A stretch of DNA of 64,000 nucleotides from Lachnospiraceae bacterium JLR.KK002. Lineage in GTDB: Bacteria > Bacillota > Clostridia > Lachnospirales > Lachnospiraceae. The stretch covers positions 3,370,501-3,434,500 of the forward strand of contig JAYMNP010000001.1 in the NCBI GenBank assembly GCA_036941025.1. The letters are read 5' to 3'. Every line of letters starts with the position of its first letter. Position 1 is the first letter of the stretch. Of this stretch, positions 1 to 19,375 are shown one piece after another. The notes under the pieces are model-generated. The model saw only the letters and a program-made list of their open reading frames with translations. It was not told the origin of the DNA and searched no databases. The position numbers and the translations under genes were made by a program.

Positions 1-285
1 TTTCATTGCGTGCTCAATATCCAAACACATCTGCAAGATTAAATATCGAAGATGCATATCTATAGTAGACAATTCCCGTAAATAAGCAAAATCTAAATTT
101 ATGTATTTACCGACTCTCTCACCGGATATGCTTTTATCGTAATTTTCCCTGTAAGAAGCTAACTTCATATAATAATTATTGTTCTGAAGAAACTCTTTGG
201 CCTCCTCTTCACTCATAATTTCAAACTTAATCCCCTTCATTTTCATATGTTCTATTAATTCATCACTTGTTTTTAACAGTTTCAT
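1..285 (-). CDS. Abi family (Abi_2) protein, C-terminus beyond window
   Basis: The first 95 codons are present and the frame is open to the left edge. The start ATG at 285 is preceded by an AAGGGAG ribosome site. The translation shows typical Abi_2/AbiD/AbiF N-terminal signatures: [33 protein letters not shown], then TIDMHLRY and DIEHAMK. Members of this family include lactococcal abortive-infection proteins that stop phage growth; some are related to RNA-targeting systems, and many have no tested role. A weak promoter with TATAAT lies just upstream. The gene stands alone and diverges from nothing obvious. Family assignment is firm; a phage-defence role is inferred from the family only. Confidence 0.85.
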
Positions 286-381
286 AATAACTCCCTTTTT
301 GCTTTTCGTAATATTATATACTACATTATTCAACAATTAAAGAGTTTTTTCGTTCTTAAATATTTTTGATAATAATAAAAA

Positions 382-477
382 GGGCTGTCGCAAAATAGCC
401 GTTGTATATAATATGGCACTCAGATCACACAGTTCTCATCCATATTATATATACAGGCTGCCTTTTGCAACAGCTCC
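382..477 (-). terminator. Long foldback acting as terminator of the xrtG operon
   Basis: The two arms GGGCTGTCGCAAAA and TTTTGCAACAGCTCC enclose a second palindrome, ATATAATATGG/CCATATTATAT, so the 96 bp can fold into one long imperfect stem. On the minus strand the stem is followed by CCCTTTTTATTATT, as in an intrinsic terminator. It lies 15 bp beyond the stop of the last operon gene. The outer arms resemble the GGGGCTGTCGCA ends of the deletion derivative at 48584-48972, so it may be a mobile-element remnant reused as a terminator. Confidence 0.65.
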
Positions 478-491
478 TTTCAAATACACTT

Positions 492-2642
492 TTACCGATT
501 TGCCAGATAATCCTGCAGGATGTAATAAGACTGTTTCAGTCTTTCCCGATATGCGGGCATTACCCATTCCTCCCAGGAATAAGACTCCTTCACCCCGTCA
601 ATGGCAAATTTAATATCTGAAATATGTTCATAGGTAATTTCATCATTTGCATAAAGATTCGCTATGCGCATTTTACTGTTTGGTTTTGAAATATTCAGCA
701 AAAGCCAGGGAATCCGCACTTCCGTCACGTTCCCTTTGATACAGAAATCTGTACGGGAATTATAATCCGGGGATTCCGGGTCCCCATTTCCATGGCGCAG
801 CTTCCCGGTCTCTGTCTGCTCGGTGCCCACCAGGGTTCCGTCGCTTAAGAGAACCGGCCGGTTCAGCATAAGATTTATGGGGACGAAACTGTTGGTATCC
901 GGCGCCGCATATCCTTCCTGCACTTCCAGCACTTCGCTGGCGGCATATAAACCGGTAGTATACAGCCAGTAATTCACATCATAATAAGGGTCCACCTGAA
1001 GGCGGCTTTCTTCCTCCCCTTTGATATCAAGGGCAAAATCCGCTCCGTCATATTCCCCATTTCCCTGATTCTCAATGGTATCCATGGTAATACGGATATT
1101 ATCGTTGTTGCCTCGAATCATCAGATAAACGTATGCCTCGTCGCTTCTTACAAACAACTCCGTATCGCCGCTTTTCAAAAGAGGCTGCTCATCGCTCCAC
1201 TCCTCGTCCTCTCCGTCTACGGTGCAGACAGGAACCTCTCCTGGTTCAAAGGACAGAAGGCCGAAAAACTGTTCGCTGGTCTGCATATCACACCAGTAAG
1301 GTCTTGCTTCCGCGTCCGTGTAGTCCATGGTATTCCAGGTTCTCTTAAACCATTCGTCCTGCCAGATAAACACACAGGCGCCGGCGCATCCCGTATCTGT
1401 TATATCACGCAGCATGGACACAATGGCATTGCCCTGTTCCTCTTCCGTCAGGCCTCCCTGATTAAACCCTGCCTCACGGGCCAGATGGGTGATTCCGCGG
1501 GAAGCCGGCACGCCAAACTCGGAAATTATCACCGGCATGGTATGATATGTATTCAAATCATTCAGATAATGCCTGTAAGGATTCTGAGGCTCATCCGTCA
1601 GAAGCTCCGGCGCATACCGCATCATTTCCGGATAATAGGGATATACATGGTAAGAGGTAAACAGTCCCGCTTTAAATTCCGGTTTTGCCTTGATATGCTC
1701 TGCATCCACCGGCACCGCATCCTCCATCTCCGGATTTGGCTCACCCGGATGGGAAAGGGGGTCCGTAGTTACCCAGTTTGCAAAAGCTGTGGGATGCTGC
1801 ATGTGATAATTTTCTGTTTCATAAGCAATACAGGCGTCCATTCCGGAAGCCAGAAATACTTCAAAAGGCGTAGCTTCTTCTGTATAGAGGTACTTCCCGT
1901 CAAATACATTTTTATCCGGATGACTTTCATTTGTGTTAATAACAAAATCCGGCTGCCACTCAATCCCCAGAATCCATCCGCATAAATACTGAGACACATC
2001 TGCCGTATAAGTACCGCTGGCATTTCCCGGTACCGGGTCAATCACTGCATTTCCATGCACCACGTCCACAATGGTTGCGCACATTTCTATCCAGTCCTGC
2101 GCAATCTTCTCATTTTCTCCGTATGCGTCGCAGATATTACTGATGTCTTCCTCATTGTTATACACACCCTGCATAAAATACAACGGTTCCTCTGCTTCAG
2201 CATTATATTCCGCCAGCGCCTCATAAAATTCCGGCATAAGTATGGTATACACGCGAATGGTGTCTGCGTGCATTTCACTGATTTGCCGGAACCATCTCTT
2301 ATAATCATCCTTCGTAATGGCAAATTCCCCCGGAAATGCTCCTGGCTTGCCGGCGCCCACATTCACGCCTGTCAGAAAAATATCCTGCCAGTTTCCGTCC
2401 GCTCTGTAAATCCGGAACTTTTTGCCGCTTGTCTGAAACAGATAACTGATACCGTCTTCCGTGTATACAGGCAGTGCCGGAATCTCCGGTTTTTCTTCTT
2501 CAGGTTTCGTATTCTGAGTTTCTTCCTGCATGGTTTCCGATTCTGCAGGTTCCTCTGATTTACCGGAAGCACATCCGGCGCACAGACCTGTCATTATAAC
2601 GATACTCAGCAGTATGGCGCCCCACATTCTGACTCTGTTCAT
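492..2642 (-). CDS. Lipoprotein glycoside hydrolase-like protein (clan GH-A type barrel) with C-terminal CBM9-like domain
   Basis: The protein has 716 residues when started at the ATG at 2642, which has an AAAGGAC ribosome site; an upstream in-frame start would spoil the signal peptide. Residues 1-24 form a lipoprotein signal ending LCAGC (lipid Cys24). A barrel-like region follows, with GIEW (Glu228) and ISEFG (Glu375) placed like the acid/base and nucleophile glutamates of clan GH-A enzymes. From about residue 488 there is a VDGEDEEW segment like the DG..xDW starts in the surface protein encoded at 8654-10906, which suggests a CBM9/DOMON-like carbohydrate-binding module. It is the last gene of the xrtG operon. 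A role in trimming a surface glycan is inferred; the substrate is unknown. Confidence 0.7.
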   Translation of the reverse strand: MNRVRMWGAILLSIVIMTGLCAGCASGKSEEPAESETMQEETQNTKPEEEKPEIPALPVYTEDGISYLFQTSGKKFRIYRADGNWQDIFLTGVNVGAGKPGAFPGEFAITKDDYKRWFRQISEMHADTIRVYTILMPEFYEALAEYNAEAEEPLYFMQGVYNNEEDISNICDAYGENEKIAQDWIEMCATIVDVVHGNAVIDPVPGNASGTYTADVSQYLCGWILGIEWQPDFVINTNESHPDKNVFDGKYLYTEEATPFEVFLASGMDACIAYETENYHMQHPTAFANWVTTDPLSHPGEPNPEMEDAVPVDAEHIKAKPEFKAGLFTSYHVYPYYPEMMRYAPELLTDEPQNPYRHYLNDLNTYHTMPVIISEFGVPASRGITHLAREAGFNQGGLTEEEQGNAIVSMLRDITDTGCAGACVFIWQDEWFKRTWNTMDYTDAEARPYWCDMQTSEQFFGLLSFEPGEVPVCTVDGEDEEWSDEQPLLKSGDTELFVRSDEAYVYLMIRGNNDNIRITMDTIENQGNGEYDGADFALDIKGEEESRLQVDPYYDVNYWLYTTGLYAASEVLEVQEGYAAPDTNSFVPINLMLNRPVLLSDGTLVGTEQTETGKLRHGNGDPESPDYNSRTDFCIKGNVTEVRIPWLLLNISKPNSKMRIANLYANDEITYEHISDIKFAIDGVKESYSWEEWVMPAYRERLKQSYYILQDYLANR

Positions 2643-2673
2643 TTTACTTTCTGTCCTTTCCCTTATGCATATT

Positions 2674-3156
2674 CTACCATTTCTTTCCATTTTCACCGAT
2701 AATCCGGTCTACCACATATTCCACCACGCCGGAAATCTGCTGGTTCTGCATTTTTCCAACCTGGTCGATAAACTCCGGCTCATTTCGATGGCTGACAATA
2801 TAACTCCGGGTAGGGGCTTCGCTGCCTTCCAGGGAAACCAGTTCGCCCCCATGCTCCCGCAGCAGAGCCTGAAGATCATCGTTAAAATGATCTGTTACAT
2901 TTTCAATGGTGGGTACAATAATATCAAAAGGCTCAATAGTATTCAGAATCTGATTCTGATATTTTTCCAGATACTGTTCAATGAGATTTTCAAAGGTACG
3001 GAACTCCACAAATTCATCACCGGCCACCACAATGGTAATCACAAATTCCCAGGTATGAGGATGAGTCTGCCCCTGTTTTCCATTGATGATAATATAATGA
3101 TTCATATTCAGATATGACTTTAAACGATATTCCCGGTATAACCTTTCTTTCCTCAT
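2674..3156 (-). CDS. PTPS-like zinc protein, XrtG-associated
   Basis: This 160-residue protein has the zinc triad arrangement of 6-pyruvoyl-tetrahydropterin synthases: His20, then His32 and His34 in the HPHTWEF motif. The remainder has an extended C-terminal half (RSYIVSHRNEP and beyond) that ordinary PTPS enzymes lack. TIGRFAM describes a PTPS-related family found beside XrtG and its glycosyltransferase in Firmicutes, and this gene fits that description in sequence and place. Its ATG overlaps the stop of the upstream sensor gene by 4 bp (ATGA), so the two are translationally coupled. It is unlikely to make pterins here, because no other pterin genes are near. The biochemical role is unknown. 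Confidence 0.75.
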   Translation of the reverse strand: MRKERLYREYRLKSYLNMNHYIIINGKQGQTHPHTWEFVITIVVAGDEFVEFRTFENLIEQYLEKYQNQILNTIEPFDIIVPTIENVTDHFNDDLQALLREHGGELVSLEGSEAPTRSYIVSHRNEPEFIDQVGKMQNQQISGVVEYVVDRIIGENGKKW

Positions 3157-4211
3157 GCACCAGTCACCGCCTTCCAGAACGTGTCAAACTGTGATTTATA
3201 ACTGTTCATATTATCTTCGCAGTACTGCTCTGCCACACCATGGACATCCCAGTTCTCCAGAGACTCTATGATTCTGTCGCTGACGCTCTTTTCATACCGG
3301 ACAAAAATCAAAAGCACCTGATTCTCACCCATGGAAAAGCGCAGCACATTATTGTCCAGCACAATCTGCATATGCTCAAAAAATTCATCTCTGGCTTCCT
3401 CAGACTCCGTTTCAAACACTGCAAAATGCAGTGGATAAACGCCCTTTTTGTCCAGAGTTTCCAGAAATTCATCCAGCACGCTGTTTCTAAACACATGTTT
3501 GCTGGCGCTGAAGGCATATTCCCGTTTAAGCTGTTCATCCAGCAGTTCAATCTGCTGATTCTGCCAGACCACCCGTTCTTCCTGCCGGTCAATGTACAGA
3601 CTCTGTCTGGTAATTCTCTTCGACATAATCATACTCAGTATAATCAGAAGGGCCAGTACAATGGACAGAATAATGATAATAGCATTCCTGCATTCCAGCA
3701 GAACATTATCCTCCAGAATCACCCGGTCATAGGTCAGCAGGCAAATACGGTACTGCTCTCCCTGCCAGTCAAAAATCATGCCTGACGCAATAAAACGGTC
3801 ATTGTCCAGATAGATAATCCGGTGTCCCACCTGATTGACCCCCAGACTGTTCATAAATTCAGAAGCAGTCTCCGTGGCATAATAAGTACCGTCGTTAAAT
3901 CCTCTGTAACGGTTCGTCTCCGTAACGCTCTTTACAAACAGAATGGAATCTCCCCTGCTTAATGTCCAGTATCTGCTGGCTGTAGAATCCAGAGAACTGA
4001 TAATGTTTGTAATATCTGTCTCTGTCCCCTCGTCATCCAGACGATTGATCTGCTCCAGAATAATTTTCACATATCCATCCTGCTCCGCACCGTAAATGTC
4101 CAGAAATCTGGTCTCATAATTATTCAGCTGATAAATGATGAATCCATCCGCTGCCATGGCAAAAAACACCACAATCACCGTCAGGATAAAAAAATTGAAT
4201 TTATGTTTCAT
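3153..4211 (-). CDS. Two-TM membrane sensor with degenerate GGDEF-like C-terminus
   Basis: The 352 residues have membrane segments at about 8-28 and 177-197. They enclose a roughly 150-residue extracellular sensor-like part and leave a cytoplasmic tail. The tail starts with a probable coiled coil (210-235) and then a region whose RFSMGENQVLLIF (291-303) lines up by eye with the RxGGDEFxxL strand of diguanylate cyclases. The catalytic Gly-Gly-Asp/Glu-Glu residues are missing. Degenerate GGDEF domains often bind cyclic di-GMP or control synthases, as PelD does in the Pel system. The gene sits between the glycosyltransferase and a PTPS-like gene, which fits control of glycan synthesis. The GGDEF relationship is a hypothesis; the membrane topology is clear. 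Confidence 0.5.
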   Translation of the reverse strand: MKHKFNFFILTVIVVFFAMAADGFIIYQLNNYETRFLDIYGAEQDGYVKIILEQINRLDDEGTETDITNIISSLDSTASRYWTLSRGDSILFVKSVTETNRYRGFNDGTYYATETASEFMNSLGVNQVGHRIIYLDNDRFIASGMIFDWQGEQYRICLLTYDRVILEDNVLLECRNAIIIILSIVLALLIILSMIMSKRITRQSLYIDRQEERVVWQNQQIELLDEQLKREYAFSASKHVFRNSVLDEFLETLDKKGVYPLHFAVFETESEEARDEFFEHMQIVLDNNVLRFSMGENQVLLIFVRYEKSVSDRIIESLENWDVHGVAEQYCEDNMNSYKSQFDTFWKAVTGA

Positions 4212-4224
4212 AAGCCCCGCTCAC

Positions 4225-5589
4225 CTACTCATAATTTACCGCTTTTCGCATTTTCTGTAATAAATTCATGGGCCGCTGCGCCTCCGACTTTAATTCTTCC
4301 TCAAAATCTTTCCGTTCGTCCGTCAGAGTCCGCGTCTTCCAGGCACTGTCCGTATTGATACTGTTGATAACCCCTGCAAACCGGATGAAAAAGACAATAA
4401 AATTGAAAAAGGGCAGCAGGGGCACCACATACCAGTGCTTTCGGTAATATTTCTTCAAATCATCAAATTCTTTCAGAAATCCCACCGTGGAAAAATAATA
4501 TAAATATCCGCTGATGATATACAGCAGAAAAATAATCCCTGTGGAAATCAGAATTACTTTTGGCGAATAATTCATACACATCAGGCAAATCAGCGCCAGA
4601 TACCAGATCAGCCTCGGAAATGCAAACGTATGGTCATACATCAGCGTACGGACCATTACATTGGTAAACATCTTGTGTACCCGCAAATCTTTCTCCAGAA
4701 ACTGATGGGACACCTCCAGACTTCCTCTCTGCCACCGCTGCCGCTGAGTGTACAGCTTATTTACCCCTTCAATGGGGTCCACACAGAATATGGCATTTTC
4801 ACAGATATGTACCTTAATATGCTGCAGATACCGCATCTGGAAAGTAATATTGGTATCCTCACAGATAGTATCCGTATTGTAAAGCTGAGATTTCAGCACC
4901 GCTGATTTCCGGAATGCGGAAAAAGCGCCGGACAGGGTATAAATGGAATTTGTCTCAGAAGCATAATTCCGGCCTGCCAGAAATGCCTGGGCATATTCCA
5001 TAAATTCCATTTTCCGCAGCAGACGGGAAAAAATCCCTTTATATTCCTCAATCATTTCCGGCATGGTGAGAATGGCTCCGGTCATACAGTCCACATCCGG
5101 ACTGGACTCGAACTTGCGCACCATGTTGCTGATGGCATGGGGTTCAAACTGCCCGTCGCTGTCCACATGAATAATGTATTTCCCGTCAGCATTAAACAGG
5201 GCCAGATTCAGCGCACGGGATTTCCCCTGTCTGGCGTTCAGCCACTGCATCAGCAAATCCGGATACAGCTCCTGACATTTGGTATATACCTGAAAAGAAT
5301 TGTCTTTTCCCTGATTATTGACCAGAAAAATCCGCATTTTGTCATTGGGATAGTCACTGTTGCTGATAGAGCTGATACACTCTTCCAGCGAATCCTGAGA
5401 ATTATATACCGGAATAATCAGCGTGATTTCCGGCCAGATTACCGGGTCCTCATAGCTTTTGGGAAACAGCGTTTTCTTAATCAGAATCAGAAAGCTGCCC
5501 AGCGAGGGAATAATTTCCATCACCAGCGGAATGATAATCCATGCCGCCCAGAATAAAATTGAATTTAAAAAATTATTTATCACTGTCAT
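4225..5589 (-). CDS. GT2 glycosyltransferase, XrtG-associated
   Basis: The protein has 454 residues from the ATG at 5589, which has a GGTGGGAAG ribosome site and overlaps the end of the exosortase gene by 17 bp. It is a processive-type family 2 glycosyltransferase. An N-terminal membrane helix (7-37) precedes the catalytic domain with DSD (143-145), the acceptor-site CED (243-245) and QRQRW (282-286), the motif of cellulose, hyaluronan and chitin synthases. Several membrane helices follow (about 320-430). These enzymes polymerise a nucleotide sugar and export the chain through the same membrane channel. It matches the clade that TIGRFAM ties to XrtG. The product polymer is unknown. Confidence 0.88.
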   Translation of the reverse strand: MTVINNFLNSILFWAAWIIIPLVMEIIPSLGSFLILIKKTLFPKSYEDPVIWPEITLIIPVYNSQDSLEECISSISNSDYPNDKMRIFLVNNQGKDNSFQVYTKCQELYPDLLMQWLNARQGKSRALNLALFNADGKYIIHVDSDGQFEPHAISNMVRKFESSPDVDCMTGAILTMPEMIEEYKGIFSRLLRKMEFMEYAQAFLAGRNYASETNSIYTLSGAFSAFRKSAVLKSQLYNTDTICEDTNITFQMRYLQHIKVHICENAIFCVDPIEGVNKLYTQRQRWQRGSLEVSHQFLEKDLRVHKMFTNVMVRTLMYDHTFAFPRLIWYLALICLMCMNYSPKVILISTGIIFLLYIISGYLYYFSTVGFLKEFDDLKKYYRKHWYVVPLLPFFNFIVFFIRFAGVINSINTDSAWKTRTLTDERKDFEEELKSEAQRPMNLLQKMRKAVNYE

Positions 5590-6172
5590 AACTGAAACTT
5601 CCCACCTTCTGCTTGATAATCTGCGGTTTGGTAAACACGTAAAAATACAGCATAACGGACAATCCATAAAATACAAACCGGCCCACAAAGGTATGGGCAA
5701 TATAGTACATGTCAATTCCGCCGAAATAAATAATCAGACAGATGACGGTGATACGCAGCGCATTTGCCAGTACCATCGCAATTACGCCCAGCACTCCCAC
5801 ATAAACACGTTCATAGACTGTGTAGACCTGATAGAACATCAGCAGGGACAGGTATGCGATAATCTCGATAATTCCGGAGCACTCGAAATCTATTTTCAGT
5901 GAAATGGCTCCCACGGAAGATTCCACGAAAATAACACCGTATTTATAATGGGCACTGTAAATTCCTGCAATCTTACCCGGAAGACTGGCCAGCAACGCCA
6001 CAATCCGGGCCAGAGGCTGGGTCAGCACCGGCTGTAAAAATACCAGCATCAGAATAAATGCCCCTGCGCTTCCAAAAAGAAAATGCCAGAAATTCAGTTT
6101 GCTTTTCTTCAATATGTGTAAAATGAACAGCCAGATAACCAGGCCGATCAGACCCACAATGTATTTTATCAT
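5573..6172 (-). CDS. xrtG: Exosortase-family transpeptidase, XrtG type
   Basis: This is a 199-residue protein, mostly membrane helices. The three conserved exosortase/archaeosortase residues are present: Cys98 in FECSG, Arg140 in ANALRI and His160 in AHTFVGRF, each at the edge of a helix as in the family. Exosortases are proposed to cleave and transfer proteins carrying a C-terminal motif-helix-basic tail. The short length and the neighbours (GT2, PTPS-like proteins) match the Gram-positive XrtG subfamily. The gene abuts the upstream stop directly (TAA then ATG) and overlaps the GT2 gene, so it lies in the middle of a tightly coupled operon. The likely substrate is the surface protein two genes upstream. 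Confidence 0.88.
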   Translation of the reverse strand: MIKYIVGLIGLVIWLFILHILKKSKLNFWHFLFGSAGAFILMLVFLQPVLTQPLARIVALLASLPGKIAGIYSAHYKYGVIFVESSVGAISLKIDFECSGIIEIIAYLSLLMFYQVYTVYERVYVGVLGVIAMVLANALRITVICLIIYFGGIDMYYIAHTFVGRFVFYGLSVMLYFYVFTKPQIIKQKVGSFSYDSDK

Positions 6173-8635
6173 TTACTCCACTTCCTTCTCCGGACTGCCC
6201 GTCTGCAGCCGGCATTTATGTACCGTATAAACCAGAAGAAAGAGGGCTGCCAGGATGGTAACAGCAATCCCCTGGTTCAGATACGGGTATTCCAGTGAAA
6301 TCACCGTAGTTCCTGATTTCACATACGTCAGATGATTTTCCGAATAAATATCCTGGCTTGCTGTAAAACTGTCATGGTACGCCAGTCCGGTGTTCACATC
6401 GTCCCTGTCCGAAACTATCGTCATACGGTCAGATTCATATTGAATGGTATAAGGTACAATTTCCCGCTCCGGCAGCTCATCCGAACTTAAATCCATGGCG
6501 CGGCTTAACAGTTTCCCAACACTTTCATCTTCCGTGAGCCCATAATAATATGTCAGGTTCAGACCAATCATTACAATATTATCATTTTTTGCTGTTCCGT
6601 AAAAGGGAAGCTCCCATTCCGCATCCTTTACCGTTCCCCATACGTCTGTCAGACCGTCCAGATACACGGTACTCCACTCCCGGTAACCGTTGGGAAACAA
6701 ATCTGTCTCCAGTACACCGTCTATGGTATCCAGATCCGGATATCCCTGGGAAAAGGAAACGCCGTTACAGATAACTCCCAGGAAGCTCTGATTCTGGCTG
6801 CCCCTGTCATCGGGAATTCCGTCTGCCGCAATGACAATATGCACACCCGCTTCACTCAAATCCGTAATCAGTTTTTCCGCGGAAGCCTTATCGTTATAAG
6901 TAAAACCTGCCAGATAAATCAGTTCATAATTCTTCAATTCCTCAAAAGTAAATTCATTCAGGTTTATCCGCTCCGACTCTTCCATCACCGGAAACTGCCT
7001 GACAATGGAAGGCGCCGCACTGCCGATACCAATCGCTCTGTATTTTGTGACGGTTCCCCAGTTTCCTTCCGCATTCAGCTTATACAGACGGTAGCTGTCA
7101 TTGTGAGCCACCATCCGATAGCCCACCCGTTCTGCCGCACGGTCCATTTTCTGCAGAGGGGCTTTTGAAGTATCTCCAATAATATCAAGCTGAATAATTA
7201 CCGTGTCATTGCCCATTTCCAGGCAGCGGTCAAAGAGATAGAGATAATTTCCTTCCTCCAGAGAACGGTCAATCTGTTTTATATTGGTAAGGGTAGCCGC
7301 AGATTCTTCCGCTGCTCCGTACATACCTGCCACCGGCTCCCCATATCCCGTCACCAGATAAGCGCTCATGGCTCCCAGACTGCTTTCATCCACCAGAGCC
7401 AGACGCTGTTCTGTCATTTCCTTTGCTTCTCCCACCAGTGTCATATCCGACTGATTAGACAGAATTATTTCCGGAAGCAATCCGTTCTGACTGCCCAGAA
7501 TCAGAGACAGAGAAGGCAGTGCATCCAGAATCAGCAGACCGGCAAAAAGCACAATCCAGCCTTTTTTCAGGGTATCCCATATCAGAAAACTGAAAAGAAC
7601 CATACACAATGCCATGGACACCAGCCGCAGCATCAGCAGAACCTGTCCGCCCGGAACCCTTACAAAAAGCAGATAAAGCGTCTCAGAAGTACAGATTAAT
7701 ATAATAATACCCGTCCAGAAACCGGGCATGGATTTCTTCTTGCTTAAAAACCCTCCAAACACCGCCAGCAGCAACACTGCCAGTCCGAAATAGGCGTCCA
7801 CGCATCCTCTCTGAAAACGTGCCGCAGGATTAATGGACAGGAACATGCTCTGAAAAAAGTCTTCCATAATTTCCAGGCTGCTCTCCGAAACCGCGCTTCC
7901 TGTTCGGGAAGGAATCAGCCATGCACCGGTAAGCAGAACTCCCAGTACAAATGAAACAAATATTTCAACACCTCTGTGCCAGTCATGACGAATCACCCCG
8001 TCAATCACAAAATAAATCAGAAATGATACCAGGAGGATTCCTCCATACTGTACATGACACAGAGAAATAAAAGCAAACATCAGTGACAGCTTCGGCAGGG
8101 TATACCAATGCCTCCACTGAAGATAATCATAAACCCAATACAGTAAAAGGGGCAGAACTGCGATACAGACAGAATGGGGCAGATTGCCCTCATAAAATAA
8201 TCCAATCAGATTGTTGGGCATAAAAAGCCACAGGGCTCCCAAAAATGCTCCGAAATAAGGTCGTTTCACCTTAAATCCCACATAAAGCCACGAAACTGCT
8301 CCGAGAAAACAGATGAACATGACAAAAATAAGATATCCCCCTATGGGGCTGCCGCCGCCAAAAAATTCACAGGCCGCCAGAAGATATACCGGTACAGGCG
8401 CAAGATAGCGCATAAATTCCACACCGTTATACCAGAAAGGGTCAGACAGGGGCCAGAAATTTCCTTCACGGATGGCATGATATAACACATCTCCCTTATA
8501 AAGATGGCTAAGGGTATCCATCCCGCTGGGACAGATACCGCTGTTCTGTACAATATTTGCCATTCCATATGCCAGTAATGCATAAAGAATGGGCATCAAT
8601 AAAATCAGATAATATGACTTTTTACTGTCTTTCAA
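6173..8635 (-). CDS. Large multispanning membrane protein, PTPS-related/YfhO-like, XrtG-associated
   Basis: The protein has 820 residues. About the first 380 hold a dozen or so hydrophobic helices. The early loop has SGMDTLSHLYKGDVLYHA, which resembles the acidic first extracytoplasmic loop of GT-C fold transferases and of the Pfam PTPS_related membrane family. A soluble extracytoplasmic region of about 400 residues follows, then one C-terminal helix (about 795-812) and a basic, acidic-ended tail. Such proteins may transfer lipid-linked sugars or handle glycan export; this is inferred from fold class and not shown. It sits between the surface protein and the exosortase and is separated from the latter by 0 bp. 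Confidence 0.7.
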   Translation of the reverse strand: MKDSKKSYYLILLMPILYALLAYGMANIVQNSGICPSGMDTLSHLYKGDVLYHAIREGNFWPLSDPFWYNGVEFMRYLAPVPVYLLAACEFFGGGSPIGGYLIFVMFICFLGAVSWLYVGFKVKRPYFGAFLGALWLFMPNNLIGLFYEGNLPHSVCIAVLPLLLYWVYDYLQWRHWYTLPKLSLMFAFISLCHVQYGGILLVSFLIYFVIDGVIRHDWHRGVEIFVSFVLGVLLTGAWLIPSRTGSAVSESSLEIMEDFFQSMFLSINPAARFQRGCVDAYFGLAVLLLAVFGGFLSKKKSMPGFWTGIIILICTSETLYLLFVRVPGGQVLLMLRLVSMALCMVLFSFLIWDTLKKGWIVLFAGLLILDALPSLSLILGSQNGLLPEIILSNQSDMTLVGEAKEMTEQRLALVDESSLGAMSAYLVTGYGEPVAGMYGAAEESAATLTNIKQIDRSLEEGNYLYLFDRCLEMGNDTVIIQLDIIGDTSKAPLQKMDRAAERVGYRMVAHNDSYRLYKLNAEGNWGTVTKYRAIGIGSAAPSIVRQFPVMEESERINLNEFTFEELKNYELIYLAGFTYNDKASAEKLITDLSEAGVHIVIAADGIPDDRGSQNQSFLGVICNGVSFSQGYPDLDTIDGVLETDLFPNGYREWSTVYLDGLTDVWGTVKDAEWELPFYGTAKNDNIVMIGLNLTYYYGLTEDESVGKLLSRAMDLSSDELPEREIVPYTIQYESDRMTIVSDRDDVNTGLAYHDSFTASQDIYSENHLTYVKSGTTVISLEYPYLNQGIAVTILAALFLLVYTVHKCRLQTGSPEKEVE

Positions 8636-8653
8636 TGCCCATTCCTCCTATAT

Positions 8654-10906
8654 TTATGCAGCTATCGGCTGCAATTCATTTTTTTTTCTCTTTTTATACC
8701 AGAGTACGATTCCCACCGTAGAGATACAGAGGATTACACCTGCAATCGGCCCGGTAGAAGTACCTGCCGTAAAAATCCACTGCTGTCCGATTCTTCCAAA
8801 CTGTGCTGAAATCTCCTTTAAATCTGTCTCATCCACACCCAGCTTTTTGGCAACCATGGGTAAATCCAGATAAAACTCCATTTCATCCTTTCCGTCTTTT
8901 CCCACTGTCATAATCATTTTGCCATACATCAAATCCATATCGTTCAGGTTGCTGATATTCGTTGAAGTATGCCATGCATCTCTGGAAGCAATATGGAATT
9001 CATATGTACCTTCCGGAAGTCCCAGTAACTGAGGATTCCAGTTGATATTTCCGGCTCCGTCTACCGCCACACACATGGGATAAAATGCCATATTCTGGTC
9101 ATAGGTTCCATTCTGCAAATCACTGCGGTTCTGGTTAAAAGCTATGGTGACAGCCGCTGTAAACTCTCCGCCGGCTTCGTCCAGATGCTGAGGCATGGTT
9201 GTCACCACATGGCCGTATAATTTACCATCACTTGAATACAGGGCGCCTTTCGCATCAATCTGATCTTCCTGAGATCCTGCAGTAGCATACTCAATGGTAC
9301 TGTGTCCGTAATCTTCCCAGTCCTCATAGTTACCGTCATAATTGATTCCGTTAAAAAGATTCTCCAGGTTATTTCCGCTGTCTTCCTGCAAATTCATAAT
9401 TCCGCTTATAAACGGTTCGCCCAGATACAGGCCAAAGGAAAGGCTTTCTTCATATTTCGGAAGCTGGTCTTTCGGAATAGCCAGTTCCCATTCATCTCCT
9501 ACATAAGATACCTGAGCGCCATTCACACCGTTCACTGCCGGTGCGGTAGTAAGCTGAATATCCGTCTCATAACCCAAATCTGAGGTAATGGCAAATTTAC
9601 CATTGGAATGGGTACCTGCGCCGGAAGCATTGCTGCTCTTTCCGTCTTTGATGTAAATATAGAACCAGTCTCCGTCATAAACTGCTGCAACCTGAGACAG
9701 ACATTCTTTATGAGCGTCATTGGGGCAGGAAGCCTCTGTTTTAGCCACTGCTGCCCAGTCGGAATAATCACCGTCAATGGTAATCCCCGCATAAACAGCC
9801 GGAACATCCACAACCACGGATTCTCCGTCCACCTGTTCAATATCACCGGAAGCTACGGAAGTTCCGCCAAAAGTAAGGGTAAATTCCGGACTCTGAAAAT
9901 AGCTGAGAGGCACTGCAAATTCCACCACGTAAGGTCCGGGATTATTTCCATGGGCACTGTTTTTTACCGCAACATCTGCTGCCACATCGCCCCAGTTTGC
10001 ATTCTTTACCGTAGCTCCGTCCTTCCCTGCATTTACAGAAAGAGCGCTGTTTGCACCTGCGGAACCGTCCGGATACTCAAACCGGAAAGCATTGCCGCTG
10101 CTGGCAAATCCATAATCCCATTCCGTTGAAGCAGTTCCGGTATAACTGAAATACATTGTGTTTCCATCAGGAGAATATGCAACTTTCCAGGAATCCACAT
10201 TGGAAGCGCCGGAGGAACGTGACGTCACCCCTGCCCAGTCGGACAGTTCTCCGTCAATATCAATCCTGCCGCCTACGGTGGTCAGGCTCTGTGCCGCAAC
10301 TGCTTCCAGATCTTCCTGTGCTTCGTTATTTTCCTCCGGAAGCACTGTTTTATCATCCTTATCTTTTACATCCTCGCTCTGATTCTTATCCTGGCTTTCC
10401 CCGGTCTGATCTTCTCCTTCTCCGGTCTGGCCTGCATCCGGATTCTGACCGGATGCGCCGCCTTCCGGTGCGGTATTTTCTGTTCCTGTGGAATTCGTAT
10501 TATCTGCCGGAGGGGTCTGTTCTGTTCCCTGGTTCCCTGTGATTCCGCCAGAATCCGTATTATCTGCCGGAGGGGTCTGTTCCGTTCCCTGGTCCCCTGT
10601 GGTTCCGCCGGAATCCGTATTATCTGCCGGAGGAGTCTGTTCGTTTACCTTGCTGTCTGCTGCCCCGGTATCACCATTCTCTGTTCCGGTTCCTGTATTC
10701 TCCGTACCGGAGCCTGTGCTGTCTGTTCCGGGATTATTATTCTCTGTCCCGGCTTTGCCGTCCGTTCCGGTACCGCCTGTCTGTCCTTCTGTCTGCTGAG
10801 ATGCCGTACCGCTGACTTCCGCTGCCGAAACAGGCATCCCCGATAACAGAAGCGATAAAGACATCAGGCCTGCCACAGTACCTCTGAAAATCTTTCTGGC
10901 TTTCAT
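8654..10906 (-). CDS. Surface protein with three CBM9-like modules and exosortase-type C-terminal tail
   Basis: The protein has 750 residues from the ATG at 10906, which has a strong GGGAGGAT ribosome site. A signal peptide (1-29, ending SAA) is followed by a Gly/Thr/Asn-rich linker with 20-residue repeats built on EQTPPADNTDSGG. Then come three modules starting IDGELSDW (217-224), IDGDYSDW (377-384) and YDGNYEDW (523-530), the signature of CBM9/DOMON-like sugar-binding domains. The end is STGP, a hydrophobic helix (about 722-738) and KKRKK. There is no LPxTG, so a classical sortase is unlikely. The tail resembles the Firmicu-CTERM signal that TIGRFAM links to XrtG. It is the best candidate substrate of the exosortase encoded downstream in the same operon. 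Confidence 0.8.
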   Translation of the reverse strand: MKARKIFRGTVAGLMSLSLLLSGMPVSAAEVSGTASQQTEGQTGGTGTDGKAGTENNNPGTDSTGSGTENTGTGTENGDTGAADSKVNEQTPPADNTDSGGTTGDQGTEQTPPADNTDSGGITGNQGTEQTPPADNTNSTGTENTAPEGGASGQNPDAGQTGEGEDQTGESQDKNQSEDVKDKDDKTVLPEENNEAQEDLEAVAAQSLTTVGGRIDIDGELSDWAGVTSRSSGASNVDSWKVAYSPDGNTMYFSYTGTASTEWDYGFASSGNAFRFEYPDGSAGANSALSVNAGKDGATVKNANWGDVAADVAVKNSAHGNNPGPYVVEFAVPLSYFQSPEFTLTFGGTSVASGDIEQVDGESVVVDVPAVYAGITIDGDYSDWAAVAKTEASCPNDAHKECLSQVAAVYDGDWFYIYIKDGKSSNASGAGTHSNGKFAITSDLGYETDIQLTTAPAVNGVNGAQVSYVGDEWELAIPKDQLPKYEESLSFGLYLGEPFISGIMNLQEDSGNNLENLFNGINYDGNYEDWEDYGHSTIEYATAGSQEDQIDAKGALYSSDGKLYGHVVTTMPQHLDEAGGEFTAAVTIAFNQNRSDLQNGTYDQNMAFYPMCVAVDGAGNINWNPQLLGLPEGTYEFHIASRDAWHTSTNISNLNDMDLMYGKMIMTVGKDGKDEMEFYLDLPMVAKKLGVDETDLKEISAQFGRIGQQWIFTAGTSTGPIAGVILCISTVGIVLWYKKRKKNELQPIAA
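10497..10650. repeat. 60-bp tandem repeat inside surface protein gene
   Basis: The string TATCTGCCGGAGG recurs at 10501, 10561 and 10621, exactly 60 bp apart, with only a few substitutions between copies. It encodes the 20-residue PPADN-containing linker repeat. Copy number may vary by slippage, which would change the linker length without breaking the frame. Confidence 0.9.
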
Positions 10907-10943
10907 AAAAATCCTCCCTTGCAATTGTTCCATTGACTCAGTG

Positions 10944-11297
10944 TTAAAATGTTTCTTCGACTATCGCATAAATGCGCAGAGGCGTTTCGCTGATTTCAAA
11001 ACGGGCAAATTTCCAATGCTGCTCTTCCAATGCGTGCTTTACTTTTACATAAAACACCTCGCCCAAATGCTCAATGCTGGTATCCCCTTCAAATTCCGGA
11101 AACTCGTTTAAATATTTATACTGATAAGGCCCAAAAACCTCTTCCAGAATGGAATTCATGCTGGCAAATTCCAGAAAATCTTCTTCCATCTGCCTTGCCA
11201 CAATTTCAATCTCAATCAGATGCTGGTGCTTGTGCTCTATCTTCCCGTCAAAACTGTGCTGCATACATAAACGATACTTTAAACGATGGTATTTCAT
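10944..11297 (-). CDS. Small PTPS-like zinc protein, first gene of xrtG operon
   Basis: The 117 residues span a compact PTPS fold: His14 in CMQHSF, then His24 and His26 in HKHQHLIEIEI, matching the His...HxH zinc triad of 6-pyruvoyl-tetrahydropterin synthase and QueD. It is shorter than the second PTPS-like protein of the operon (2674-3156) and differs from it clearly, so the two are not a recent duplication. It follows the predicted operon promoter by about 60 bp; its ribosome site is weak. Two members of one family in a single operon suggest different partners or a heteromer. Function unknown; the zinc site is inferred from residue spacing. Confidence 0.7.
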   Translation of the reverse strand: MKYHRLKYRLCMQHSFDGKIEHKHQHLIEIEIVARQMEEDFLEFASMNSILEEVFGPYQYKYLNEFPEFEGDTSIEHLGEVFYVKVKHALEEQHWKFARFEISETPLRIYAIVEETF

Positions 11298-11369
11298 CCG
11301 ATTCTACCTGCCCATACTCGTAGTTCTGCCTGCTGCCATGTACCCCCAGGGTACATTAATTATGCATAT

Positions 11370-11397
11370 ATTATATCACCTATATTATTTTTTTCAA
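11370..11397 (-). promoter_or_regulatory. Sigma-A promoter of the xrtG operon
   Basis: On the minus strand TTGAAA (11392-11397) and TATAAT (11370-11375) are separated by 16 bp. The first operon gene starts at 11297, giving a leader of about 65 nt. No other good promoter was seen between the eight genes. Confidence 0.7.
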
Positions 11398-11486
11398 TCC
11401 CAATATAACTCAAATCTTTCCCATTTTTACGATATTCGTCAGACATTTTCCAGGTTTTGTAAAAAAGAATGCGTATAGCGCATTCT

Positions 11487-11608
11487 CCGCGCGCGAGCGG
11501 ATTGCCTGGCAATAAACTTCATCTCCGCGAGCTGCGCATAATTGTTCCTATCTTATAGGAAATTCATACACCTTAACACATCGCAGTAACACGGTATTTC
11601 CCATAAGA
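11487..11608. repeat. Dispersed structured repeat, copy A
   Basis: This copy shares long identical stretches with 24107-24237, for example GCGCGAGCGGATTGCCTGGC and TCTCCGCGAGCTGCGCAT, and the pair TCTTATAGGAAAT/ATTTCC-ATAAGA. It can fold into two parts: a GC-rich stem-loop with an inner ATTGCC/GGCAAT hairpin, and a longer stem from the TTATAGGAAAT arms. It lies between the divergent xrtG promoter and the rpsR terminator. It could be a small mobile element or a structured RNA. Confidence 0.75.
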
Positions 11609-11610
11609 CA

Positions 11611-11640
11611 AAAAAACCAGCCATCCGAAGATGGCTGGTC
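11611..11640 (-). terminator. Terminator of rpsF-ssb-rpsR operon
   Basis: A 10-bp perfect stem, ACCAGCCATC (11616-11625) with GATGGCTGGT (11630-11639), closes a CGAA/TTCG tetraloop and is followed on the minus strand by a run of T. It lies 40 bp after the rpsR stop. Confidence 0.92.
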
Positions 11641-11680
11641 ATTTCCGCAATTCCTGTCAGACAAAATCTGTTTTCAGAAC

Positions 11681-11944
11681 TTAATCTGTAACATAAGGCA
11701 TTAAGGAGATATGTCTTGCTCTCTTGATGGCAACGGTAAGAGCTCTCTGGTGCTTTGCACAGTTGCCGGTGATTCTTCTGGGAAGAATCTTTCCTCTTTC
11801 AGAAATATATCTCTTTAACTTGTTGGTATCTTTATAATCAATCACGTTGTCTTTTCCGCAAAATACGCAAACCTTCTTTCTTCTGCGCATTCCGCCTCTC
11901 CGCTTCATGGGAGCATCGCCTCTGTCTGTTTTATTATAAGCCAT
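11681..11944 (-). CDS. rpsR: 30S ribosomal protein S18
   Basis: The 87-residue product starting MAYNKTD has the S18 core: RRKKVCVFC, the [17 protein letters not shown] segment and the C-terminal [11 protein letters not shown]18 binds the platform of the small ribosomal subunit next to S6. The ATG at 11944 is 8 bp from AGGAGG; the in-frame ATG at 11950 is too close to it. It is the last gene of the conserved rpsF-ssb-rpsR operon and is followed by a strong terminator. The CVFC pair and nearby Cys hint at the zinc-containing form of S18 in some bacteria, though this was not verified. Confidence 0.97.
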
Positions 11945-11961
11945 TTTCATTACCTCCTGTT

Positions 11962-12405
11962 CTAATTAAATGGCAGCTCTTCGTCTATCCCGTCGGGAAT
12001 ATTCATAAAACCATCTCCGACTGCCGCGCTGGGGGCGGGTCTTCCGACCGGCTGGTATCCGCCTGCCTGTCCTTCACTTGCAGCCTTGCTCTCTGCAAAT
12101 TCCTGCTCCTCCACCACAACATCCGTGGTATACACTCTCTGTCCGTCCTGATTGGTGTAGCTTCCGGTCTGAATCCTTCCGGTTATGGCAATCTTGGTTC
12201 CCTTATGGAAATATTTTTCTGCAAATTCACCGCTTCTGCCAAAGGCAACACAATTGATAAAATCTGCGGTCTGCTGGTCACTGTCACGCTTAAATCTTCT
12301 GTCTACAGCCAGTGTATATCTTGCAACTGCCGTTGCCTGCTCACCCTGTGAGTAACGGACTTCCGGATCTCTGGTCAGTCTGCCCATCAGTATTACTTTA
12401 TTCAT
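11962..12405 (-). CDS. ssb: Single-stranded DNA-binding protein
   Basis: The 147-residue protein opens with [19 protein letters not shown] and has the OB-fold core ([21 protein letters not shown], then [13 protein letters not shown]). A flexible linker leads to the acidic tail DEELPFN, whose last residues bind replication and repair partners. SSB coats single-stranded DNA during replication, recombination and repair. Its place between rpsF and rpsR is the standard Firmicute arrangement and marks it as the housekeeping copy. Confidence 0.97.
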
Positions 12406-12422
12406 CTGATCTCCTCTTTGTA

Positions 12423-12719
12423 TTACGCTTCATCCTGTCTAACGCATAAGAAACGCAGTACATTGTCCAGAATACGCACACGTTTTTCGATTTCTGCCGG
12501 ACAATCTGCGTTTGCATCGAACTGAATAAAGTAGTAGAAACCTTCTCTCATTTTCTGAATCTCGTAAGCCAGTCTTTTCTTACCCCATTCATCCACGTTG
12601 GTTATCGTACCGCCGAATCTGGTAATGTATTCTTTTGCTTTCTCTACCACTGCGGCTCTTTCTTCATCTTCGATTTTTGCATTAACAACAAGCGCTAATT
12701 CATATTTGTTCATGCTCAT
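12423..12719 (-). CDS. rpsF: 30S ribosomal protein S6
   Basis: The product starts MSMNKYELALVVNAKIEDE and has the S6 ferredoxin-like core, with EEWGKKRLAYEIQ-like and FYYFIQFDA segments, about 98 residues. The start was set at ATG 12719, just behind an AAGGAGG site; ATG 12713 is equally possible because the spacing is 4 or 10 bp. A longer open frame to 12764 has no ribosome site. S6 pairs with S18 on the small subunit, which explains the shared operon. Confidence 0.95.
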   Translation of the reverse strand: MSMNKYELALVVNAKIEDEERAAVVEKAKEYITRFGGTITNVDEWGKKRLAYEIQKMREGFYYFIQFDANADCPAEIEKRVRILDNVLRFLCVRQDEA

Positions 12720-12803
12720 CGTACCTCCTTCTGGTCTCCGGCCCTCAGTCTGCGCTGAGAGCAAGGATAAACTGTTATATCACGAATTAATATCATAACA
12801 CAA

Positions 12804-13832
12804 TCAATGTTGATTTTCAAGGACTTTGTCTAAAAATCTTTCGATTGTCCCATAATATGTATCGGGCTCCTTATCCTGCGTCTGTCCGTGCCCGGCGTCC
12901 TCCACAATCAGCAGTTCTTTCGGACATTCTGCTTCCTCGTATAAATCCTTCGCCATCTGAACGGAAATCATGGCGTCAGAACTTCCATGAATAAACAAAA
13001 TGGGAATCCTGCTTTTTCGGACTGCTTTAAGGGCGGAAGCGTCTTTCAGGTTGTAGCCGCCCCGCAGCCGGAGAGCCAGGCAGGCCGAATCCACCAGCGG
13101 AAATGCCGGCAGATTGAACCATTCTCTGATTTTCTCCCCAAACATGCTGTAAGCATCCGTATAGGAAGAATCGGAAATCACAGCACGAACCTGTTCCGGC
13201 AAATCTTTTTTCCCCGCCATCATCAGGGCTGCGGCCGCTCCCATGGACTGGCCGTGAAGTACAATCTGAGCCTGGTTGTTCTGAGCCAGAATCTCATCCA
13301 GCCAGAGCATACAGTCAGAAGCATCCGTCCATCCCATACCGATAAAATCCCCTTCGCTCTCTCCCTGACACCGCAAATCCGGCACTACCACATGATAGCC
13401 CTGCTGGTGATACCAGTACGCAAAGGGATACATTTCTTCTTTCCAGCCAGTGTATCCATGAAGGAGCAGTACCCATTTATGACTTTCTCTGTCATTGCTT
13501 TCTCCTGCCGGAAATTCTTCTGCAATCAACCTGTATCCATCCTCCGTTTCCACAGAAAGTTTCCTGTGTTTTGCCGTTTCAAGCCATGTCCTGGTCTCCT
13601 CCAGCGCTTTCTGCCTGTTTCCCTGAATATCTGAAGTCTGTACCTGAGCCGCATAGCTTTCTTCCGTAATCCGCTCAAATGCTTCCAGCTTTTCCATAAA
13701 GGAGGGTACCAGCGCGGCGCTTACCAGAACATTGACCAGAAGGATATAAAGGAACAGCAGCAGGGGCAGGGTAAGTCCTGCTGCCCTGGCAGCTTTTTTC
13801 CTGTTTTTCTTCTCTTTCATAAATTTTTTCAT
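12804..13832 (-). CDS. Membrane-anchored alpha/beta hydrolase
   Basis: The protein has 342 residues. A basic N-terminus and one membrane helix (about 19-42) place the enzyme outside the membrane. The hydrolase domain has the oxyanion loop LLHGYTGW, a nucleophile elbow GQSMG, an acid Asp in HGSSDAMI and a His in DAGHGQ, so the Ser-Asp-His triad is complete. It resembles the YqkD/BAAT-like family of Firmicute serine hydrolases with a peptidase_S9 or DUF1749-like look. The substrate is unknown. It is monocistronic as far as can be seen. The start ATG at 13832 has a modest GGGAAC ribosome site; a second ATG is four codons on. Confidence 0.85.
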   Translation of the reverse strand: MKKFMKEKKNRKKAARAAGLTLPLLLFLYILLVNVLVSAALVPSFMEKLEAFERITEESYAAQVQTSDIQGNRQKALEETRTWLETAKHRKLSVETEDGYRLIAEEFPAGESNDRESHKWVLLLHGYTGWKEEMYPFAYWYHQQGYHVVVPDLRCQGESEGDFIGMGWTDASDCMLWLDEILAQNNQAQIVLHGQSMGAAAALMMAGKKDLPEQVRAVISDSSYTDAYSMFGEKIREWFNLPAFPLVDSACLALRLRGGYNLKDASALKAVRKSRIPILFIHGSSDAMISVQMAKDLYEEAECPKELLIVEDAGHGQTQDKEPDTYYGTIERFLDKVLENQH

Positions 13833-13892
13833 TCTCTTTTGTTCCCGACTGCGTTCTTAAGATTAAGTAATGCCATATTCCCTTTACCATAT

Positions 13893-14180
13893 ACAGGCAA
13901 TTGCGAAACTCAATAATTGTACTGATTTCATGTACAATTCAGAAGATTTGAATATAAATATTTTTTCATGCGAAAGGTGAGAAATGCATTTCAGCACCAT
14001 GGAGGTAAGACTCAGATAACCATGGAGGCCTTTGCTGAACATGGTTATCTGCAGTCGGAGGCTTACCGGAATGTCCGGTGCGTCCGGCATTTCGGCCTTT
14101 TGTATGAGGAAAATATTTAAGAGAAACTGTTGCAGTTGTACATGAAACTTTGATAATCAGATAGTTTCGCAATCACCTGT
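13893..14180. repeat. Foldback MITE, copy 1 (IS1182-like ends)
   Basis: The 288-bp element starts ACAGGCAATTGCGAAAC and ends GTTTCGCAATCACCTGT. The left and right halves are imperfect inverted repeats throughout, including TTTCATGTACAA and its complement, and the centre carries an extra hairpin (AGATAACCATG...CATGGTTATCT). A near-identical 8-bp flank (TACCATAT/TATCATAT) may be the target duplication. A second copy is at 22980-23266, and the ends match the IS1182-type insertion at 44677-46435. Confidence 0.85.
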
Positions 14181-14193
14181 TATCATATACTAT

Positions 14194-14222
14194 GAAAGAA
14201 GCTGTCACAAAACAGCCCTTTT
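14194..14222 (-). terminator. Terminator after DUF951 gene
   Basis: GCTGT (14201-14205) pairs with ACAGC (14212-14216), and on the minus strand the hairpin is followed by TTCTTT. It lies about 55 bp after the stop of the DUF951 gene. The GGGCTGT...ACAGC sequence resembles the arms at 382-477. Confidence 0.5.
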
Positions 14223-14276
14223 AAACTATTATACAGCATATAACCGTAATTTACATCCGGAAAAAAATACCTGTTT

Positions 14277-14471
14277 CTATTCTTCTGCCTGCTTCCGGAT
14301 TCCTCTGGTATTTTTCTCCACCAGTTTTCTGGCCATCATCACCTGATGGCCGCATCCCAGGCATTTCAGGCGGAAATCCGCTCCTGTCCGCAGCACTTCC
14401 CATTCCTGGCTGCCGCAGGGATGCTGCTTTTTCAGACGGACAATATCGCCCACTTCAAATGGTATCGGCAT
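14277..14471 (-). CDS. DUF951 family small protein
   Basis: The 64-residue protein has the full DUF951 signature: VGDIVRLKKQHPCGS, EWEVLRTGADFRLKC and CLGCGHQV. The conserved Cys residues (HPCG, KCLGC) suggest a small zinc-binding domain. DUF951 proteins are widespread in Firmicutes and often lie next to chromosome-segregation or translation genes; their function is not known. It lies 18 bp after the sirtuin gene on the same strand and is probably co-transcribed with it. Its own ribosome site is AGGAGGAACG. Confidence 0.93.
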   Translation of the reverse strand: MPIPFEVGDIVRLKKQHPCGSQEWEVLRTGADFRLKCLGCGHQVMMARKLVEKNTRGIRKQAEE

Positions 14472-14489
14472 ATACGTTCCTCCTGATTC

Positions 14490-15230: not shown

Positions 15231-15391
15231 GCTGAATCCTCCCTTTTTATTATCTAAATTGTTGAATAGGTTCTTCCGGAATTATCATCCCCTGCTTTTA
15301 TCAGCAATATCCATTTTCTCCTCTTCCGTACTTTTCTAATCCTTATGTATAATGTATTTATTGTATCACATCTTCTTACAACTGTCATTAA

Positions 15392-15437
15392 TTTCAAAAC
15401 CGCCGGAAACAGACATCTGAACCATTCTGTTTCCGGC
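15392..15437 (-). terminator. Terminator of MacAB-like efflux operon
   Basis: GCCGGAAACAG (15402-15412) pairs perfectly with CTGTTTCCGGC (15427-15437); on the minus strand the stem is followed by GGTTTTGAA. It lies just after the permease stop at 15453. Confidence 0.75.
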
Positions 15438-15452
15438 AGCTCTTTTCCACTG

Positions 15453-16688: not shown

Positions 16689-16710
16689 TATAATACCTCA
16701 AGACTTTCCA

Positions 16711-19105: not shown

Positions 19106-19290
19106 CCTGTTTCCTCCCCTTTCTTTTTCATACAGAAAACTGCTGCACGCCTGTTTTATACCATTTTATACTATATTACTGAAATGAAACTTAAGGTTTT
19201 CTTACTTTTACCTTACGATTGCGGACAAAGGGGATATCATCTGATATTCTCTGTAAATAAATAACTAACGAAATATTTCAAGGAATTTCT

Positions 19291-19319
19291 TCAAAATTTT
19301 TCCATTAATGTAGTATAAT
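19291..19319 (+). promoter_or_regulatory. Probable promoter of dipeptidase gene
   Basis: A perfect TATAAT lies at 19314-19319, 57 bp before the start codon. The -35 position has only a poor match (TCAAAA at 19291), so this is a moderate call. Confidence 0.45.
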
Positions 19320-19375
19320 ATCTGTAAAAGTTTCACAATTATCGGATGACTATTTATTAAAGGAGACGATTGCCC

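Follow-up and report, generated by a model that had tools for sequence, protein, structure and literature searches.

A 64,000-nucleotide stretch of the genome of Lachnospiraceae bacterium JLR.KK002 (contig JAYMNP010000001.1, positions 3,370,501 to 3,434,500 of the forward strand), called the window here, carries at its left end an eight-gene operon built around xrtG, the gene of an exosortase. We lean towards the view that its products form one complex in the cell envelope, a glycan synthase served by an exosortase of its own; judged from its sequences, the operon probably makes a sugar polymer and retains it on the surface of this gut bacterium. Comparison with related loci shows that the gene set is kept together, that its two PTPS-like proteins belong to separate lineages fused in relatives to different membrane proteins, and that one clade has joined XrtG to the ectodomain of its substrate and lacks the catalytic cysteine.

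An eight-gene operon around xrtG

The genes lie on the minus strand between positions 492 and 11297, close-packed or overlapping, and are transcribed in the order PT1, CTE, GTC, xrtG, GT2, SEN, PT2 and GH.

10944..11297, minus strand: PT1, PTPS-like T-fold protein of 117 residues, upstream lineage (TIGR03112, PF01242, tree)
8654..10933, minus strand: CTE, secreted Firmicu-CTERM surface protein of 759 residues (TIGR04145)
8657..8770, minus strand: C-terminal sorting tail of CTE, with TAGTSTGP, a hydrophobic helix and a basic end (tails of 57 proteins compared)
6173..8635, minus strand: GTC, GT-C type membrane glycosyltransferase of 820 residues (PF10131)
5573..6172, minus strand: xrtG, exosortase of 199 residues with Cys98, Arg140 and His160 (TIGR03110)
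4225..5589, minus strand: GT2, membrane family-2 glycosyltransferase of 454 residues with QRQRW (TIGR03111; start codon chosen by eye)
3153..4211, minus strand: SEN, 352 residues, with a membrane helix, a CACHE/PAS-like ectodomain, a second membrane helix, a coiled coil and a degenerate GGDEF-like domain
2674..3156, minus strand: PT2, PTPS-like T-fold protein of 160 residues, downstream lineage (TIGR03112, tree)
492..2642, minus strand: GH, putative lipoprotein glycoside hydrolase, weakly GH-A-like (start codon chosen by eye)

An earlier note on this DNA had proposed TIGR03110, TIGR03111, TIGR03112 and PF10131 as the families to search, and all matched over their cut-offs, TIGR03112 twice. XrtG scores 175.5 bits against TIGR03110 (cut-off 102.75), GT2 621.5 bits against TIGR03111, PT1 72.9 bits against TIGR03112 (cut-off 69.35) and 42.8 bits against PF01242, PT2 123.9 bits against TIGR03112, and GTC 400.1 bits against PF10131 (gathering cut-off 26.4); CTE is likewise over the cut-off of TIGR04145, with 113.2 bits. 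These matches bear out the exosortase with its Cys98, Arg140 and His160, the GT2 polymerase, the two PTPS-like proteins and the tailed surface protein of that note. Its name for GTC, a PTPS-related membrane protein, fits the PF10131 match but undersells it, as PMC7801869 assigns PF10131 to the clan of GT-C glycosyltransferases. XrtG, the one exosortase found, is the genome's single PF09721 match, GTC its single PF10131 match, and CTE the only Firmicu-CTERM protein found there (two matching stretches in the same open reading frame). The partners that mark an XrtG system, namely TIGR03111, TIGR03112 and Firmicu-CTERM proteins, are all encoded beside it.

A search for XrtG at phylum level covered 398 genomes (13 matched at E ≤ 0.001, 9 of them over the cut-off), and further searches covered 397 genomes of the family Lachnospiraceae (29 over the cut-off) and 391 of the class (13); we compared 50 neighbourhoods from the genome survey and 21 from named genomes. 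XrtG is present in 71 of 72 sources. The source without it, L105, surrounds a second match in genome G573 (E 4e-4, three stops) that we rejected as chance; L125, in which XrtG shares a frame with GT2, was excluded from the 70 loci used below. These 70 include two identical pairs (L013/L100 and the window/L004) and a far exosortase below the XrtG cut-off (L126, 23.6 bits), and the 67 unfused, Cys-bearing loci correspond to 64 distinct XrtG-like sequences plus L126.

Gene-set counts rest on custom hidden Markov models built from the window proteins. Of the 70 loci, 56 extend more than 6.5 kb beyond xrtG in each direction; among these, GT2 occurs in 55, GTC in 53, CTE in 48, PT2 in 47, PT1 in 44, SEN in 43 and GH in 17; the window-derived CTE model misses the small ectodomains of distant loci (0/7), which were recognised separately. 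The same genes thus surround xrtG in relatives, in line with the suggested comparison of gene order, and the eight-gene operon, earlier described as one unit, is real. Across the Lachnospiraceae, XrtG and TIGR03112 exceed their cut-offs in the identical 29 of 397 genomes, and five further genomes have weak, sub-cut-off TIGR03112 matches. We take TIGR03112 to have been built from XrtG-type neighbourhoods, so that this co-occurrence confirms the link rather than discovers it.

A substrate-fused XrtG without the catalytic cysteine

At the columns of Cys98, Arg140 and His160, all 70 loci have the Arg and the His, and 67 have the Cys. Unfused XrtG, with frames of 194–270 residues and no match to the ectodomain model, has the Cys in 67/67. 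A Syntrophomonas-type clade instead encodes a fusion of about 400 residues, made up of an ectodomain, a helix and XrtG, and all 48 such proteins recovered from 8000 scored candidates lack the catalytic Cys (Asn in 35, Ser in 13). The length limit of that search shuts out unfused XrtG of about 200 residues, and the unfused side was taken from the genome loci. All 14 loci from the family to which G015 belongs follow the rule, the 8 fused ones having Asn and the 6 unfused ones Cys, and further fused proteins carry Ser in another family (L151) and Asn in a third (L118). The fused proteins form one clade (tree support 0.914), and its nearest unfused relative, L120, keeps the Cys. A Fisher test of the link between fusion and Cys loss counts the loci as independent, which members of a single clade are not, and we give its p value no weight. 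Wherever the contig allows, the fused gene has GTC before it and GT2 after it. Several Cys-less proteins carry the NCBI name 'exosortase family protein XrtG'. G1176 has two Cys-less fused copies, on two contigs (L135, L138).

The fused ectodomain is related to that of the tailed partner. CTE combines DGxxxDW ectodomains with a low-complexity linker (domains read by eye), and 36 of 57 CTERM proteins have GxSTG among their final 60 residues. By hhalign, the XrtG-fused ectodomain matches the CTE C-domain at 95.7% over 123 columns (unrelated controls ≤0.5%), and free or GTC-fused single ectodomains at 100%. Some Syntrophomonas-type relatives have a separate gene before xrtG for a single ectodomain of 221–232 residues with SPIP and a helix, complete in L120, L129 and L134 and partial in L130, L132 and L133, and a CTE-like ectodomain was read by eye at the C terminus of GTC in L117 and L124. 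L125 (9784-11232) joins XrtG to a shortened GT2 part in one 482-residue frame and keeps the Cys; on this one locus, Cys loss goes with fusion of the substrate domain, not with fusion as such. Neither of the two free ectodomains matches a Pfam family, and no fused one matches a carbohydrate-binding family there; the fused ectodomain of L119 has a sub-cut-off FG-GAP match. A CBM9-like reading, suggested by eye, found no supporting Pfam match and nothing better than E 0.1 in a profile search of the PDB, so that we assign the ectodomain to no family, and we do not claim the GH C-domain as a further copy (hhalign 33.7% at best).

Judged from these alignments, Cys-dependent cleavage is dispensable where substrate and exosortase share one chain, while the rest of XrtG is kept; read most simply, this would mean that XrtG also tethers its partner to the synthase. 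It seems unlikely to us that the Cys-less proteins are decaying genes or rely on Asn or Ser chemistry and so tell nothing about XrtG. Ser in 13/48, Gln for His in 4/48 and the origin in one clade, perhaps in one event, would suit such an account, but Arg is kept in 48/48 and His in 44/48, the frames measure 388–403 residues in 47/48 (P0288 is a partial record) at 47–95% identity to the query, and Asn, the residue in 35/48, is on general chemical grounds implausible as a peptidase nucleophile. A more serious contender, which we judge plausible without favouring it, is classical sorting, by which XrtG would cut the CTERM protein and transfer it covalently to the glycan or lipid that GT2/GTC make, giving a wall protein–glycan conjugate. 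The Cys of every unfused locus and the Arg and His of all 70, the CTERM tail with its motif, helix and basic end, the location of xrtG beside glycosyltransferases, and the cleavage-and-transfer model given for EpsH in the available text of PMC1569441 all speak for it. It is countered by the clade of ectodomain-fused XrtG, in which 48/48 proteins have no Cys and GTC and GT2 still flank the gene on contigs long enough to show them: since the locus persists there without the Cys, Cys-dependent transfer is not required in that clade. The word sorting in the earlier note therefore needs care; an exosortase and a tailed protein are present, but this clade has lost the nucleophile and fused the substrate domain.

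We put forward only tentatively a stronger form of the docking reading, in which XrtG is foremost a docking subunit of the glycan synthase rather than an exporting protease and would hold the glycan-side ectodomain near GT2 and GT-C, while two pseudo-PTPS proteins would form a cytosolic ring tying the sensor to the glycosyltransferases. In the Syntrophomonas-type clade the tether would then have become a fusion and the nucleophile been lost, leaving a substrate-fused pseudo-exosortase. If this is true, 'exosortase' is, in part of the XrtG family, the name of a scaffold. The fused clade amounts to a natural experiment that sets proteolysis apart from whatever else an exosortase does, and these substrate-fused, Cys-less relatives make the role of XrtG testable.

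PTPS-like proteins and the proposed glycan synthase

The 106 PTPS-like domains fall into two paralogous lineages, one upstream and one downstream of xrtG, with tree and position in agreement for 105 (support 0.878). PT1 is present in 51 loci, PT2 in 54 and both in 42. Upstream-lineage domains are fused to the N terminus of GTC in 16 cases (including the near-duplicates L109/L110) and to that of CTE in one (L078), and downstream-lineage domains to the C terminus of SEN in four (L077, L084, L088, L103); in L083 the downstream domain has a tail of its own. The PTPS domain of L077, L084 and L103 comes directly after the sensor part, in the place of the GGDEF-like domain, and in L088 a SEN-like stretch lies between the two. 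The L078 protein (10283-11317) is a 344-residue CTERM protein with an N-terminal, cytosolic PTPS domain, a membrane helix, an ectodomain and a sorting tail.

A profile of the PTPS-like family matches the solved PTPS 2dj6 (E 7e-6), and a PDB sequence search with PT2 alone found no match; a prok_STING match of PT2 (E 0.023) was below the cut-off and was set aside. With the residue roles of PTPS enzymes as a guide (nucleophile, Asp–His pair, Zn-binding His, substrate Glu), the Zn-binding His triad is kept in 54/54 PT2 and 48/52 PT1 at each of its three columns, and the substrate Glu in 54/54 and 46/52. The nucleophile position of PT2 holds Gly in 53/54 and Ser in 1/54, and the catalytic Asp of the Asp–His pair is Gln in 54/54. 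Of the 52 PT1 domains, 27 carry Glu where the nucleophile would be; the catalytic PT1 column lacks Asp among the five commonest residues, and the next column has His in 3/52. Neither protein keeps the full set of nucleophile and Asp–His pair of PTPS and QueD enzymes, and the two score 25.1 and 24.1 bits against a QueD cut-off of 89.25.

It is improbable, in our judgement, that PT1 and PT2 act as pterin or deazapurine enzymes and supply the system with a small molecule. PF01242 over its cut-off, the kept Zn-binding His and substrate Glu, and the Glu in 27/52 PT1 would fit such enzymes, but the nucleophile and Asp replacements of PT2, the fusions to three different membrane proteins and the finding of no other PTPS-domain match in the genome all tell against them. 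Because the domain is fused in relatives to GT-C, to the CTERM protein or to the sensor, it looks like a shared cytosolic adaptor. We read PT1 and PT2 as an adaptor or receptor at the inner face, presumably oligomeric, that would join these three proteins; if this is true, a pterin-enzyme fold has been reused in a membrane complex. The fusions also suggest which parts touch.

The glycosyltransferases supply the rest of the proposed synthase. GT2 homologues next to xrtG keep QxxRW in 68/69 and DxDG in 61/69, the motifs of processive family-2 enzymes. GtrA, GtrB and a GT-C enzyme of YfhO type form a three-component glycosylation scheme. The PF10131 GT-C of the window resembles part of this scheme, and relatives' operons contain GtrA (L107), GT2-GtrA fusions (L092, L119) or YfhO (L082), for which reason a polyprenyl-phosphate donor is expected; the window operon differs in having an exosortase and neither GtrA nor GtrB. 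The GT2-GtrA proteins of 353–366 residues from relatives' operons found no match at the genome's own three GtrA loci, and the 259-residue GT2 of L107 matched two of the three at 28% identity. A PDB sequence search with GTC found no match.

SEN has the fold of a GGDEF domain, and the signature GG[DE]EF is found in 0/120 of its homologues and 0/49 SEN proteins from the loci; the earlier label of a GGDEF-like sensor thus stands for the degenerate fold and not for the signature, and c-di-GMP synthesis by SEN was rejected. The gene of the predicted GH-A lipoprotein is likewise present, but its fold is weakly supported, by a sequence match to the GH2-type PDB chain 9fz9 (E 0.0019) and by none from profiles. 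GH has no match in Pfam or NCBIfam, although its family is large (at least 2974 homologues among 7999 scored), and its invariant residues in a sequence alignment include Glu233 and Glu380. Some GH homologues have about 1,050–1,100 residues and HEAT repeats, and in L010, L016 and L018 a GT2 with a membrane tail takes the place of GH.

In the complex that we favour, GT2 would polymerise and extrude a polysaccharide, to which GT-C would add sugars on the outside from a polyprenyl-phosphate donor. XrtG would dock its single partner, the Firmicu-CTERM protein, which in the window lineage it probably cleaves near GTSTGP, and the CTERM ectodomain would work beside the growing glycan. SEN may sense outside and signal inside through its dead GGDEF domain, PT1 and PT2 would together form a shared cytosolic T-fold assembly linking SEN to the GT-C/CTERM side, and the GH lipoprotein may trim the product.

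Several observations weigh against this complex. GH is missing from most of the well-covered loci (17/56 have it), and the trimming of the earlier note rests on this gene and its weakly supported fold. Glycan binding by the ectodomain is a guess, as the domain matches no Pfam family. A simple pattern for the acidic GT-C motif in the first outer loop, applied without an alignment, matched 19/72 GTC proteins. Neither GtrB nor GtrA is encoded in the window operon, and the GtrA matches of the genome are at three sites elsewhere. PT1 may have kept activity, given its Glu at the nucleophile position (27/52), and some PTPS do carry Glu in place of the Cys nucleophile. No PT1 is visible in 12 of 54 PT2 loci, two of which (L085, L094) lie near a contig end, so that a hetero-oligomer of PT1 and PT2 is not a feature of all loci. 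Finally, what the fused XrtG does without its Cys need not hold for the Cys-bearing XrtG of the window.

Known systems and the flanks of the operon

The type of system is already known from genome mining and annotation models, and its joint function is not established in the literature found. In the available text of PMC12854382, XrtG of Lactiplantibacillus plantarum is over-expressed together with a CTERM protein and a pair of associated glycosyltransferases, as one system; that text reports expression and no knock-out. The available part of PMC8951740 names an exosortase G-associated GT2 of L. brevis in a table. Our operon resembles such XrtG/Firmicu-CTERM systems in having TIGR03110, TIGR03111, TIGR03112 and TIGR04145 all over cut-off, and differs from the L. 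plantarum system, taken as reported in PMC12854382 and not from the locus itself, in its two PTPS-like proteins, GT-C, sensor and GH. With the PEP-CTERM/EpsH system, as far as described in the available text of Haft 2006 (PMC1569441), it shares an exosortase linked to polysaccharide genes and a tail in which a motif is followed by a helix and a basic end. It differs in its Gram-positive host, in having one substrate found in the genome instead of many, and in its motif, GxSTGP in the window and SPIP in Syntrophomonas-type relatives. GT2 resembles processive synthases of the PgaC/IcaA type in its family-2 match, QxxRW and 124.9 bits against the PgaC_IcaA model, but lies far below that model's cut-off of 422.3 and has its own equivalog, TIGR03111. 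We found no paper in the open-licence literature on the joint function of XrtG systems, the PTPS fusions or the Cys-less fused XrtG. New from our comparison are the two PTPS lineages with their fusions, the Cys-less, substrate-fused XrtG and the co-occurrence of XrtG and TIGR03112 in 29 of 397 genomes; XrtG systems are spread through the sampled Lachnospiraceae and other Bacillota.

The following features flank the genes.

11370..11397, minus strand: promoter TTGAAA-16-TATAAT with an extended −10 (promoter scan and conservation upstream)
376..476, minus strand: palindromic dispersed repeat, read earlier as the operon terminator (fold and genome copies)
11460..11488, minus strand: hairpin and T run between rpsR and the operon promoter (read in the sequence; fold of 11455-11545, z −1.86)

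The promoter at 11397-11370 reaches 11/12. Overall, that scan yields 29 sites where chance alone would give 25.1 (standard deviation 4.7), which is no excess, so that conservation backs the promoter best: TTGAAA with TATAAT 15–19 bases on is kept in 18 of 21 upstream regions of relatives (missing from L016, L023 and L024). The terminator claim lacks support as written. The palindrome at 376-476 folds well (z −5.74, folded as DNA) and could end transcription, but it is a repeat of about 100 bases with consensus ends GGGCTGCCGCAAAAT...TTTTGCAACAGCCCC, present in 8 genome copies at 72–100% identity and found at the operon end only in L004, the same operon as the window, among the loci compared; it is no conserved part of the operon unit. 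It resembles a miniature mobile or REP-type element. Just past it, an Abi_2-like gene (1-336; PF07751, 35.5 bits) is cut by the window edge.

The genes upstream of the operon, identified by eye as rpsR, ssb and rpsF from their sequences, are separated from it by two terminator-like hairpins, the one listed above and another at 11640-11615, which alone of the two was listed by the terminator scan. An Rfam search of 1-20000 for riboswitches or other RNAs found no match up to E 1. The host is a Lachnospiraceae member near Eubacterium sp. 14-2 (XrtG 95% identical) and Petralouisia (86%). Elsewhere in the window, the open reading frame at 28518-29696 looks by eye like an IS110-type transposase.

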